Assembly: GCF_900100955.1 (NCBI RefSeq)
Contig: NZ_FNCC01000004.1
Location: 248,001 to 312,000 of the forward strand
Direction: 5' to 3'
DNA from: Lentzea fradiae
Lineage (GTDB): Bacteria; Actinomycetota; Actinomycetes; Mycobacteriales; Pseudonocardiaceae
Length of the DNA: 64,000 nt
Numbering within the stretch: position 1 is the stretch's first letter; every line of letters begins with the position of its first letter. Below, in pieces: positions 26,813-31,290 of this stretch. The translations under genes and the position numbers were made by a program. The notes under the pieces were generated by a model. The model was not told where the DNA came from and did no database searches. It worked only from the letters and a program-made list of their open reading frames with translations.

Positions 26813-26857
26813 GCGCCCGAGAACTGAACAACGGCCGCGGCGCGCACAGCGCCACAA

Positions 26858-26944
26858 CCCGGGTGGGAGAGACCTCGACGCACAGCGGTCGGGGCGCCGA
26901 AGGGGCAAGCTCCCGCACACTCTCAGGCAGCAAGACCGCCCGGG
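26858..26944 (+). promoter_or_regulatory. glycine riboswitch (single aptamer)
   Basis: The leader of gcvH carries the conserved glycine-aptamer core: GGGAGAGACC (26865-26874), GCGCCGAAGGGGCAAGC (26894-26910) and ACTCTCAGGC (26919-26928). Outer stem P1 is formed by CCCGGG at 26858-26863 and 26939-26944. A complete second aptamer is not visible, so it is of the singlet type, perhaps with a downstream ghost stem. The sequence AGGGG (26966-26970) with CCCCT (26981-26985) could be part of the expression platform. Glycine binding is expected to turn the glycine-consuming operon on. Confidence 0.9.
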
Positions 26945-27011
26945 GTAGGCAACTCTGCACGGCGGAGGGGGCGCAAGTGTCCCCTGACCGTCACCGCACA
27001 GAGGAGTCGCC

Positions 27012-29222: not shown

Positions 29223-30812
29223 TCAGAACGGCCAGTCGGCGTCGCGGCCGGCTTCGAGCAGCGGGATCGCCCGGAACGTCGCGTCGGTCAGGCCACCGAA
29301 CTCGTGCCGGTTCGCCTTCCCGGTCGCGTACGCGCCCATCCGGTAGCCGCCCAGGTTGAACCCGTAGATCGGCACGTGCCGCGGCACGACGTCGGAGACG
29401 CCCTGCCCGTACGCGCCCGACATCGTCTGCATGTCCGAGATGACGAACACGCGGTCGTGACGCCCGTAGGAGCGCTTGAGCGACCCGATGATGTCGGTGC
29501 CGTGCCCGACCTCGCCGATCCGCTTCAGGAACCGGTCGACCTCGCGGACGACCGACGCCCCGCGCGGCACCTCGTGCCGGAACGTGCGGTCCGCGAACCC
29601 GACGAGGTCGACCTGCTCGCCCTTCGCCGCCAGCGCCACGCCGAAGACCGCCGCGGCCTTCGCCGGGGTGACCTTCGACCGCGCCGACACCGGCGTGCCC
29701 GTCATCGACGCCGAGGTGTCGACGAGCACGAGCGACCGGCCCGGCAGCGTGGGCAGGTTGCCGAGCGACGCCCGCAGCGCCTGGTCCAGGGCGTGGCCCC
29801 AGCGCAGGCTCGGCGCCGCCTCGTAGGCGGACAGGAACCGGAACGGCAGCTGCCGCGAGCGCGCCACCTGGCCGGGGTCGGCCAGCCGTGCCGCGACGGT
29901 GGCCGCGACCTCGTCGGACATGCCCGCCTCGTCGAAGTTCCTGAGGTTGCGCAGCAGCGCCATGTAGCCCATCGACGGCGCCAGCGCCTCCCACACGTCC
30001 TTGGTGAGCGGGCCCTGCAGCCACCCGGCCACCGACTCCCACGTCATCCCGGCCCGCCGCAGCACGTCGGCCGCGTCGGGACGCGAGAAGAGCGCACGGC
30101 GCTGCTCGACCGGCCACGCCATGAGCTCGCGGCGGGCCGCGATCACGGACAGGCCGTCCGGCACCGGTGCGTCGGCGGAACGGCGCCGGTCCAGCACGTG
30201 CTGGAACAGCGCGCCCTGCCACGGGGCGGCCGGCGAGGGGTGGGTGAGGTTCAGCACGTCGGCCATCCGGAAGCCACGGGCGTCGCTGTCCCACTTGAGG
30301 ACGGCGCGCTCGTCGTACAGGCGCCGGACGGCGTCGGCGATGCCGCGCTTGACCGGCTTCGGCACGCGCCGGCCGTTCTGGCTCGTCCAGTAGGCGAGCA
30401 GCTCACCGGGCTCGTCCGCGCGCTGGAGCACCGAGGCGATGACCGCGCGGTTGGTGACGCCCGCGTCCGCGGACTCCACGAGGCGGGCGAGCACGAACTC
30501 GGCCGCGCCGACGAGCGACGCGGTGCGCATGTTCGCCTCGGTGCGCAGCCACTGGAGCAGGCGCGCGGTCCACTCGGGGTCCGCGAGCGCTGCGGCGTGC
30601 ACGAGCTGGGCGAAGCGGTTGTCGCGGCTGGTCCCGGACTCGTAGAAGGTGTCCTCGCCGCCCATGTTCGACACGGCGAGCAGGAACAGCTCGGACTTCG
30701 TGTCGCGGGCGTACCCGTCGCCGCCCTCGTGGGTGCGGCCGGCCGGACGCGCCGCCGTGGCGACCGGGCTGGTGCCCGCCGGGCGTGCGCGGAAGACGTT
30801 GAACTTCGCCAT
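29223..30812 (-). CDS. rsr: bacterial Ro60 orthologue (TROVE + vWA domain RNA-binding protein)
   Basis: A 529-residue ring protein of the Ro60/Rsr family, which binds Y RNAs and helps RNA decay and quality control. The TROVE HEAT-repeat domain covers about residues 20-355 (for example GYARDTKSELFLLAVSNMGG, FAQLVHAAALADPEWTARLL). The vWA domain follows, with an intact MIDAS DTSASM near residue 365 and later TDIIGSL and VISDMQTMSG. The ATG at 30812 follows GAGGGGGAAGAG. Three Y-RNA-like units lie directly upstream on the same strand, which supports function as a Y-RNA partner. No rtcA/rtcB genes are nearby, unlike in Salmonella. Confidence 0.93.
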   Translation of the reverse strand: MAKFNVFRARPAGTSPVATAARPAGRTHEGGDGYARDTKSELFLLAVSNMGGEDTFYESGTSRDNRFAQLVHAAALADPEWTARLLQWLRTEANMRTASLVGAAEFVLARLVESADAGVTNRAVIASVLQRADEPGELLAYWTSQNGRRVPKPVKRGIADAVRRLYDERAVLKWDSDARGFRMADVLNLTHPSPAAPWQGALFQHVLDRRRSADAPVPDGLSVIAARRELMAWPVEQRRALFSRPDAADVLRRAGMTWESVAGWLQGPLTKDVWEALAPSMGYMALLRNLRNFDEAGMSDEVAATVAARLADPGQVARSRQLPFRFLSAYEAAPSLRWGHALDQALRASLGNLPTLPGRSLVLVDTSASMTGTPVSARSKVTPAKAAAVFGVALAAKGEQVDLVGFADRTFRHEVPRGASVVREVDRFLKRIGEVGHGTDIIGSLKRSYGRHDRVFVISDMQTMSGAYGQGVSDVVPRHVPIYGFNLGGYRMGAYATGKANRHEFGGLTDATFRAIPLLEAGRDADWPF

Positions 30813-30835
30813 CGGCTCTTCCCCCTCGAAGCAAA

Positions 30836-30999
30836 AGAAAGGGGAGCCCACGAACTCCACACGTGTCCGAGATCAGAGCGCGGAAGGTACGTTGCTGCTC
30901 TGCCTGACTGAGCTACGACCGGATGGCCGGTGGGATTCGAACCCACGTCCCGCCCATTAAAAGTGGAAGTAACCCTCTGCTTCGCACCGGACACGTGTG
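30836..30999 (-). ncRNA. Y RNA-like unit C with tRNA-like module (YrlA type)
   Basis: Read on the minus strand, CACACGTGTCCG (30988-30999) pairs perfectly with CGGACACGTGTG (30858-30869), and CAGAG pairs with CTCTG inside it, leaving GTGCGAAG opposite ATCT as an internal loop. This is the shape of the Ro-binding helix. Inside lies a tRNA-like module in permuted order: T-arm GTGGGTTCGAATCCCAC (30930-30946), short acceptor hairpin ACCGG/CCGGT (30918-30931), D-arm GCTCAGTCAGGCAGAGC (about 30896-30914). A T-rich tail (CCCCTTTCTTTT) follows the stem. It lies 24 bp upstream of rsr. The 5' end is inferred from pairing and could extend further. Confidence 0.85.
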
Positions 31000-31093
31000 A
31001 AGTTGTGCGCTCCCGAGATCGGTTCGCCGGCGGTGTTCTGATTACGGATCGAAGTAACCGCCGGCTTCGCACCGGGTGCGATTTCCATACAAC
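31000..31093 (-). ncRNA. Y RNA-like unit B, minimal form without tRNA-like module
   Basis: On the minus strand it has the same Ro-stem motif (GGTGCGAAGC...GGTTACTTC, 31051-31073). The inner stem is GCCGGCGG (31058-31065) with CCGCCGGC (31026-31033). The outer stem is CGC-A-CCCG with CGGG-A-GCG, closed by GTTGT/ACAAC. The loop is only about 24 nt and can fold as GTTAC/GTAAT. There is no T-arm or D-arm sequence, so this is a stem-only Y RNA. Its 3' end abuts unit C, so B and C may be cut from one precursor. Confidence 0.75.
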
Positions 31094-31129
31094 CACGCCG
31101 CGCCAGCGGTTTTATCTCCGGCGGAGGTG

Positions 31130-31275
31130 GAGTTGTGGGGCGCCCGAGTTCAAGTCGCGGAAGGTGACTGCTCACCGGAGTGAGCACGACCGGCCTGAGC
31201 CGGTCCCAGGAGTTGAACCTGAGTGGACACCGAAGTAACCCTCCGCTGCGCACCGGGCGCACATTCATACAACCA
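31130..31275 (-). ncRNA. Y RNA-like unit A with tRNA-like module (YrlA type)
   Basis: On the minus strand the Ro-stem motif GGTGCGCAGC...GGTTACTTC lies at 31230-31254. Inner stem: GCGGAGGG with CCTTCCGC (one G-U pair). Outer stem: CGCCCG with CGGGCG. The tRNA-like module is again permuted: T-arm CAGGTTCAACTCCTG (31207-31221), acceptor hairpin GACCGG/CCGGTC (31188-31205), D-arm-like GCTCACTCCGGTGAGC (31169-31185). Its 5' flank shares a 23-bp block with unit B (22 of 23 identical, 31266-31288 and 31086-31108), which is either promoter or 5' RNA. Confidence 0.8.
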
Positions 31276-31290
31276 CACCGCGCCAGCGAA

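Follow-up and report, generated by a model that had tools for sequence, protein, structure and literature searches.

What is the tRNA mimicry of bacterial Y RNAs for? That Y RNAs lie beside rsr genes and that YrlA imitates a tRNA are already known, and the purpose of the imitation is a question that a mimic with a switching anticodon can address. The locus of Lentzea fradiae described here, in which a tandem array of three Y RNA modules immediately precedes a TROVE/Rsr gene on the minus strand, includes such a mimic. It was analyzed within a stretch of 64,000 nucleotides, the whole of which is called the window.

Anatomy and recurrence of the array

The array spans positions ~31288-30858 (-) and is flanked by a VTT-domain (DedA-like) gene and rsr. 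Its features, together with those of rsr, are the following:

31263..31288, minus strand: conserved element CGCTGGCGCGGTGTGGTTGTATGAAT, 5' of RNA1, a promoter candidate (by eye, repeated 5' of RNA2)
31140..31260, minus strand: RNA1, with a Ro-binding stem, a T-arm-like hairpin, a middle hairpin and a D-arm-like hairpin with a shrunken loop, without an anticodon arm (fold z, pair counts, found by R1)
31081..31108, minus strand: second copy of the conserved element, 5' of RNA2 (by eye)
31008..31080, minus strand: RNA2, a short Y RNA with a Ro-binding stem and a 22-nt loop, without a tRNA core (fold z, pair counts, loop comparison)
30858..30999, minus strand: RNA3, a YrlA-type Y RNA containing a complete circularly permuted tRNA (Rfam YrlA match, A3 and A6 pair counts)
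30952..30968, minus strand: RNA3 anticodon arm UUCCA-CUUUUAA-UGGGC, with a Lys-type UUU anticodon at 30961-30959
30947..30951, minus strand: RNA3 five-nt variable loop GGGAC, with C48 at 30947
30930..30946, minus strand: RNA3 T arm GTGGG-TTCGAAT-CCCAC (Rfam match, pair counts)
30916..30929, minus strand: RNA3 acceptor-like stem with a small closing loop, without a free 3' CCA end (Rfam match, pair counts)
30896..30915, minus strand: RNA3 U8-A9, D arm (A14 G15 ... G18 G19) and A26
30813..30849, minus strand: predicted hairpin over the rsr ribosome-binding site (folding of 19 Lentzea leaders)
29223..30812, minus strand: rsr, a Ro60/TROVE protein with a vWA domain, 529 aa, ATG at 30812 (PF05731)

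A preliminary description of this DNA had reported three copies of a 5' motif on the minus strand, each followed by a matching 3' strand that closes a long stem. The copies were located as described and their coordinates were reconfirmed in the sequence: GGTGCGCAGC...GGTTACTTC at 31254-31232 (-), GGTGCGAAGC...GGTTACTTC at 31073-31051 (-) and GGTGCGAAGC...GGTTACTTC at 30988-30966 (-). Each of them forms with its 3' strand a two-helix stem around an internal loop. The stems were upheld as well, as the single-sequence folds were better than those of dinucleotide shuffles (z of -4.0 for RNA1, -3.4 for RNA2 and -2.3 for RNA3) and compensatory change was observed in relatives. The interval proposed at that time, 31288-30836, cuts into the rsr leader at its 30836 end. 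The claim that no protein frame explains the region was judged fair: the overlapping ORFs are mechanical, and the region is accounted for by the RNA evidence.

Two covariance models were used for the searches, R1, made from RNA2 and its relatives only, and R2, made from RNA3. In the 8.5-Mb genome of this strain, and with 150 of 5710 first-look candidates scored, R1 reported only the places of RNA2, RNA1 and RNA3 (E 6.6e-20, 7.5e-10 and 7.5e-5); R2 found RNA1 at 62.8 bits. Rfam at gathering scores detected no YrlA in the whole window, and only a glycine riboswitch outside the array. The search with the YrlA covariance model that had been proposed in the preliminary description succeeded in part, since RNA3 matched YrlA (RF02553) at a relaxed threshold with 35.1 bits (E 5.8e-6) and did not reach the gathering score of 69; this score, which is the curators' threshold and not a biological feature, was reached at 0 of 18 related loci. 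The glycine riboswitch, at 26854-26948 of the plus strand (60.2 bits), precedes an ORF called gcvH-like by eye and a gene for serine dehydratase, and is ordinary.

Compensatory changes, which had also been suggested as a check, were counted in 19 Lentzea-type loci (the window, L002-L013, L015-L018, L022 and L037), L039 and L046, both of genome G002, being set aside. The tandem triplet was found to be general in this set, with RNA1, RNA2 and RNA3 in the same order in 19 of the 19 loci selected. In RNA1 (alignment A1) 98.1% of the cells are paired and 5 of 31 pairs are changed on both sides; the values are 96.5% and 5 of 15 pairs (19 cells) for RNA2 (A2), and 95.1% and 4 of 33 pairs (12 cells) for RNA3 (A3). 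Paired cells, both-changed cells and the covariation score were above all 500 shuffles for each of the three RNAs. The number of both-changed pairs was matched by 0, 3 and 1 of the 500 shuffles for RNA1, RNA2 and RNA3, respectively, and that of 'further pair types' by 140, 42 and 484. Over 51 R1 matches from 25 sources, in an alignment fitted to the R1 model, the Ro stem is 92.1% paired, with 14 of 16 pairs changed on both sides (9.8 in shuffles) and 141 both-side-changed cells (43.9 in shuffles).

The loop lengths of the R1 matches fall into two groups, 22-39 and 63-104 nt, which correspond to a short class and a tRNA-like class. Compared with the YrlA module, RNA1 keeps the T arm and has a D-like hairpin with a shrunken loop. 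RNA2 was filed as a short Y RNA and not as YrlA, with no tRNA core seen by eye in the 19 sequences. The identification as Y RNAs made in the preliminary description was supported by covariation, by the model searches and by co-occurrence with rsr, and at the level of sequence chance is excluded as the source of the modules by conservation together with covariation. The RNA family is bacterial Y RNA/YrlA, apparently in an unreported variant that falls below the Rfam YrlA threshold, and the proposed identity and anatomy of the locus are very probably correct. The tRNA parts of RNA1 and RNA3, the permuted tRNA with its anticodon arm and the wide recurrence of the arrays were absent from the preliminary description.

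Among the sequences retrieved with Rsr, identity was 84-89% for Lentzea species, 81% for 'Nocardia sp. NRRL S-836' and 54-62% for Acrocarpospora, Actinomadura and Actinoplanes. Modules were found by R1/R2 in the last three genera and in genus g39, which we infer to be Streptomyces. An intact rsr is not universal in the genus sample, in which G021 and G023 have none and G019 and G022 have fragments only. Genome G002 has two rsr loci, one (L039) with four modules on the opposite strand beyond the rsr end, the other (L046) with two modules upstream. Additionally, R1/R2 matched all nine of the actinobacterial plasmid and actinophage Ro loci first fetched, and in genome G395 modules of 62.5 and 49.6 bits lie beside a distant Rsr (33% identity). 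In a sample of 396 genomes from the whole phylum, Rsr at E<1e-40 and R2 at 49 bits or more were found in the same nine genomes, with cut-offs chosen after the tables had been seen and few candidates per genome scored in both searches. The next R2 match, in G408 (48.4 bits), covers model positions 39-118 only, without the Ro stem, and no Rsr was found in that genome. Weak R2 matches of ~23-48 bits were not counted as Y RNAs; many of them cover only ~39-118 and lack the Ro stem, and these were taken for adjacent tRNA genes without being checked singly.

In g39, 169 of the 392 sampled genomes match R2 at E<=1e-8. When 97 loci of this genus were scanned with strict patterns similar to those given below for RNA3, which yield lower bounds, 75 showed at least two modules and 30 showed three, all in the order A-M-B; class A was present in 84 (these classes are also defined below). 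Therefore, three-module arrays recur and are not special to the Lentzea fradiae genome. The variant looks common. The Rfam YrlA threshold missed it at all 18 related loci, and it has been labelled tRNA-Arg in two phages: in Gordonia phage VanLee (L105:2204-2275) and Streptomyces phage GiJojo (L106:2269-2343) an annotated tRNA-Arg overlaps an R2 Y RNA module, that of VanLee, with a UCU loop, resembling a permuted mimic. Within this family, some phage Ro genes are located among tRNA genes. In genome G218 (L090:1208-1281) ARAGORN called a tRNA-Arg(ccg) between two YrlA modules, the site of the short module in relatives. In L013 a fragment comprising the 3' half of an additional Y module, left over from gain or loss within the array, lies between RNA1 and RNA2, and similar fragments are apparently present in L014, L019 and L020 (by eye).

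The gene next to the array proved to be the Rsr gene that had been described there (PF05731 TROVE, E 1.8e-16). The VWA_2 match of its product, 24.2 bits, is just under the cut-off of 27, and its sequence relatives in the PDB are 9kop and 9l5y (TROVE proteins) and 2nvo (Rsr, E 0.0037). A stretch of ~390 aa, which begins with Cys and ends with VTGN before Cys, is inserted in frame in the Rsr of two species, Lentzea aerocolonigenes NBRC 13195 and L. jiangxiensis (loci L017 and L018, with rsr from position 2501). The insert has LAGLIDADG and intein-splicing matches, with the intein model at or below its cut-off, and probably represents an intein within Ro60.

The end of RNA3 lies 45 nt upstream of the rsr start, and a leader hairpin involving the G-rich stretch before the ATG was predicted in 19 of the 19 Lentzea leaders folded, which makes translational control possible. 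Both observations would suit a cis-acting leader, in which binding of Rsr to the 5' leader of its own gene would, together with the hairpin at the ribosome-binding site, repress translation of rsr. Such an explanation of the modules is improbable, given that the four-module array of L039 is encoded past the rsr end on the other strand, that a short module of Actinomadura lies ~2.2 kb upstream, and that separate conserved elements precede RNA1 and RNA2 (by eye). A cis-acting role could nevertheless hold in addition to the Y RNA role. The conserved element, 26-28 nt long, is common to the upstream sides of RNA1 and RNA2, varies in relatives (by eye) and may be a promoter of an unusual type; comparison by eye with sigma-70, sigma-54 and ECF consensus sequences gave no fit. 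An extended terminal stem of GUGGUUGU with ACAACUCCAC around RNA1 and RNA2 was considered and rejected, as by eye the upstream letters vary (GTTGTAT, GTTACAT, GTTGCAT) and no compensating change is seen downstream. The upstream element was therefore treated as a promoter candidate.

The permuted tRNA of RNA3

The order of the parts in RNA3 is Ro stem, anticodon arm, five-nt variable loop, T arm, acceptor 3' strand, small loop, acceptor 5' strand, U8 A9, D arm, A26 and Ro stem. Read from its predicted arms, RNA3 is a whole tRNA opened between the D arm and the anticodon arm and set into the Ro-binding stem. The tRNA features of an anticodon arm, a variable loop, T, D and acceptor parts and a 15-48 pair are all present, the last of these agreeing in 19 of the 19 Lentzea loci (G-C in five, A-U in fourteen). 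No open CCA acceptor end and no linear order of arms were found in RNA3. The permuted order and the closed acceptor therefore make it a tRNA mimic, not a tRNA.

Little weight was given to a cluster of tRNA genes or pseudogenes. The T- and D-arm sequences are canonical, and ARAGORN and the phage annotators call tRNA-Arg at the Y RNA modules of VanLee and GiJojo; however, ARAGORN found no tRNA anywhere in the window, the arms are permuted, the acceptor is a closed hairpin and the Ro stem covaries, all of which makes such a cluster barely credible as an explanation.

The mimic was traced further by a scan of 132 sources with strict patterns (T arm, D arm, 5' motif and 3' motif), which gave 154 hits and 130 distinct cores from 105 sources. 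These cores were divided into class A, whose anticodon stem has 3 bp or more (n=87 distinct cores), and class B, without it (n=43). Modules that fail the strict patterns are lost in such a scan; similar patterns passed 2 of 9 plasmid and phage loci, all nine of which were matched by R1/R2. In class A, U33 was present in 87 cores, a purine at 37 in 86, A38 in 86 and a five-nt variable loop in 85, and the 15-48 pair was G-C or A-U in 86 of the 87, with a mean of 53.6 and a highest value of 66 over 10,000 shuffles. In class B, U33 was present in 21 cores, A38 in 7 and the 15-48 pair in 41.

An alignment of 53 cores (A6) was assembled from 47 of 85 distinct class A cores, with a maximum of five per loop, and six phage or plasmid cores; the two whose variable loop has four nt were excluded. 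In A6, 97% of the cells are paired, and 160 cells are changed on both sides versus 49 in shuffles. Both-side changes occur in 13 of 22 pairs (9.8 in shuffles, the value being reached by 1 of 500); the anticodon stem contributes three of these 13 pairs. The 15-48 position is a standard pair in 53 of 53 cores (52 G-C or A-U, one G-U), with 20 both-side changes. RNAalifold predicted the anticodon arm unaided from the aligned cores. The minimum-energy fold of the window's RNA3 was obtained without the anticodon arm, and forcing the arm costs 3.3 kcal/mol. Comparison of the sequences shows the Ro stem, the permuted tRNA fold with its 15-48 pair and the anticodon arm with its constant U33. As a separate observation, CCGGUG in the 5' Ro-stem strand of RNA3 (30999-30858, -) could pair with CACCGG after the T arm, giving a non-permuted tRNA-like fold and a possible switch.

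Outside the actinomycetes, a GUU-type arm was observed beside Ro genes in three of five loci, those of a Xanthomonas phage, a Caulobacter phage and a Deinococcus plasmid, and was not clearly seen in the other two, a Rhizobium plasmid and a Brevundimonas phage. The anticodon arm in Y RNAs may be old.

Anticodon switching and likeness to tRNA loops

Seven anticodons were found in the RNA3 of the 19 Lentzea loci: GUU in nine, UUU in three, CCU in three, and GCA, GUA, UGG and CGG. On the rsr tree of these loci the anticodon label requires 10 changes. Positions 34, 35 and 36 change 8, 6 and 4 times, 32 and 37 twice each, and 33 and 38 not at all, the mean being 1.0 over 143 gap-free columns, on a tree in which 10 of 16 inner branches are weakly supported and with some flank, D-loop and acceptor columns equally fast. 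L. albidocapillata and its subspecies violacea (L006, L015) have GUU versus CCU. The sisters L007 and L011 differ at 32, 34, 35, 36 and 37, one having the exact Pro loop UUUGGGA and the other the exact Asn loop CUGUUAA.

All of the loops were compared with the tRNAs of the window's genome (59 Rfam matches; 55 distinct tRNAs with 44 anticodons by ARAGORN) and not with those of each host, and the related species are not independent; on this basis, six of the seven Lentzea loops equal the tRNA of the same anticodon over all seven letters, and the seventh is one letter off. Class A shows 19 distinct loops with 17 anticodons, all 17 of them among the 44. Eleven of the 19 loops, covering 74 of the 87 cores, are exact tRNA loops, and eight are unequal to the loop of the window's genome for that anticodon. 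U36 is present in 73 of the 87 class A loops, and part of the match follows from the conserved CUNNUAA frame, because most U36 tRNAs share the CU..AA flanks. The Pro loops, in which 32, 36 and 37 change together, fall outside this explanation.

The short class was studied as class M in the g39 loci, where 73 short modules reduced to 70 distinct ones; the 60 with a 7-nt hairpin beside the UACUUC motif, its 5' strand holding UUC, were kept. U33 is present in 58 of these 60. There are 37 distinct loops, 11 of them identical to a real tRNA loop and 26 not, the real ones including some with unusual flanks, namely UUGUGAU (His), UUCUGGU (Gln), UUCAGGU (Leu) and UUUGCAA (Ala). There are 21 anticodons, one of which (AUG) is absent from the set of the window's genome, and position 36 is C in 31, G in 14, A in 10 and U in 5, unlike class A. 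In Lentzea RNA2 the hairpin is at a fixed place in 13 of the 19 copies, all with U33, and no anticodon-like loop was found at that place in the other six, the window's RNA2 included. Therefore, the short class shows an anticodon-like loop often, not always.

When classes A and M and the Lentzea RNA2 were pooled, 21 of 57 distinct loops equalled a real tRNA loop, the null means being 0.38 with letters shuffled, 1.13 with U33 kept and 14.35 with flanks redealt among anticodons (13 of 5000 reach 21). The association of flanks with anticodons alone was weak in class A (reached by 697 of 5000 shuffles) and modest in class M (90 of 5000). These comparisons show that the fast-switching anticodons are drawn largely from real tRNA loops.

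It is here that the main alternative has to be weighed. The Y RNAs could come from tandem tRNA genes and follow ordinary YrlA biology, the anticodon arm being a leftover or a spacer and only the T/D/acceptor part, which tethers an effector such as PNPase, being of importance. The Rfam YrlA consensus indeed has no anticodon-arm columns, and the arm is missing from 43 of the 130 distinct permuted cores, although the 15-48 pair is kept in 41 of these 43. A relic, however, would be expected to decay, and the constant U33 (87/87) and A38 (86/87) of class A stand beside positions 34-36 that switch, largely between real isoacceptor forms. Moreover, in the sister pair L007/L011 five loop positions differ together, Pro-type versus Asn-type, and the short class, which has no tRNA core, also often shows such loops. 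A relic arm was thus considered rather unlikely, albeit the strongest of the alternatives. Switching between sister species at a constant U33 and fold suggests that the anticodon loop is the working part of the molecule, and loop swaps would be a direct test of its role.

Proposed function and comparison with known systems

The best explanation overall, which we consider fairly probable, joins an Rsr, three Y RNAs, a permuted tRNA in RNA3 and anticodon loops as bait. By analogy with Deinococcus and Salmonella, Rsr would bind the three Y RNAs through their shared bulged stem, and the Y RNA would tether it to an effector such as PNPase. The termini of the permuted tRNA, between the D arm and the anticodon arm, are fused to the Ro-binding stem, and RNA3 should not be chargeable because its acceptor end is a closed hairpin. 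RNA1 contains T- and D-like parts, and the short RNA2-type module presents a bare anticodon-like loop in many relatives. Fast switching among largely real isoacceptor forms, a fixed U33 and fold and an unchargeable molecule are the reasons for which recognition by an anticodon reader was inferred; they suggest that Ro60 displays fake tRNA anticodons to something that recognizes real ones.

The anticodon loops would then act as bait or decoys for factors that read tRNA anticodons, the likeliest targets being anticodon-cleaving RNases of toxins, host immunity or phages, and the switching would reflect conflict with such RNases. This bait mechanism is put forward tentatively; synthetases, t6A or other modifying enzymes as readers, or PNPase tethering alone, are also possible. 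A decoy for the VapC toxins of the strain itself was discarded, as a single PIN-domain match in its own genome gave no support. On a wider and somewhat more doubtful view, the Ro60 loci of actinomycetes and phages would be an anticodon display, in which mimics without an amino acid are held by Rsr to decoy or sense RNases that cleave anticodons and an arms race drives the anticodon changes, the long class being mostly U36 (Asn, Met, Ile, Lys, Arg) and the short class mostly C36, G36 or A36 (Glu, Gly, Ala, His, Gln, Leu).

An anticodon arm in a Y RNA, a complete permuted tRNA with a switching anticodon and a short class with anticodon-like loops were all absent from the available portions of the literature searched (including PMC8628891, PMC9569102, PMC7824862 and PMC11472068); the primary reports on Y RNAs (RNA 2014, Structure 2018, Microbiol Spectr 2018, Annu Rev Microbiol 2020) were outside the scope of this search, and hence these features are not claimed to be unpublished. 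Like YrlA (RF02553), whose Salmonella tRNA-like module is PDB 6CU1, RNA3 has a Ro-binding stem, a permuted T/acceptor/D module and rsr as its neighbor. YrlA is described with D, T and acceptor arms only in the accessible part of a review (PMC8394870), whereas RNA3 adds a complete anticodon arm and a five-nt variable loop, reaching all four tRNA arms. In the Salmonella rsr-yrlBA-rtcBA operon, as outlined in an excerpt of PMC7790460, more than one Y RNA lies beside rsr, as in the Lentzea locus. Unlike that operon, the Lentzea locus has three Y RNAs and no rtcB, the one RtcB match of the genome being on another contig, and its short class is without a tRNA core, the structure of YrlB being outside this comparison.

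The Deinococcus radiodurans Y RNA/Rsr/PNPase complex (RYPER) likewise combines Rsr with a Y RNA. According to the portions of PMC8394870 and PMC4726728 at hand, Rsr binds the stem of the Y RNA, which gates Rsr and tethers an effector, and by analogy such a tether and gate would be the default model for the Lentzea locus. In this genus, the plasmid Y RNA of Deinococcus taeanensis (L261) carries a GUU-type anticodon arm. The GGUNCGAAG and CUUGA-type strands around a bulged Ro-binding helix also resemble those of vertebrate Y RNAs. Vertebrate Y RNAs are not known to show tRNA mimicry.

Finally, phage tRNAs can counter defences that attack tRNAs, such as PrrC and retron-Eco7, and PARIS is cited in the same source (PMC11555353, in the part available). 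The proposed target would be the same, tRNAs attacked at the anticodon, and some actinophage Ro genes lie in tRNA clusters. Unlike those phage tRNAs, the RNA3-type mimics are permuted and end-closed, and would be tied to Ro60.
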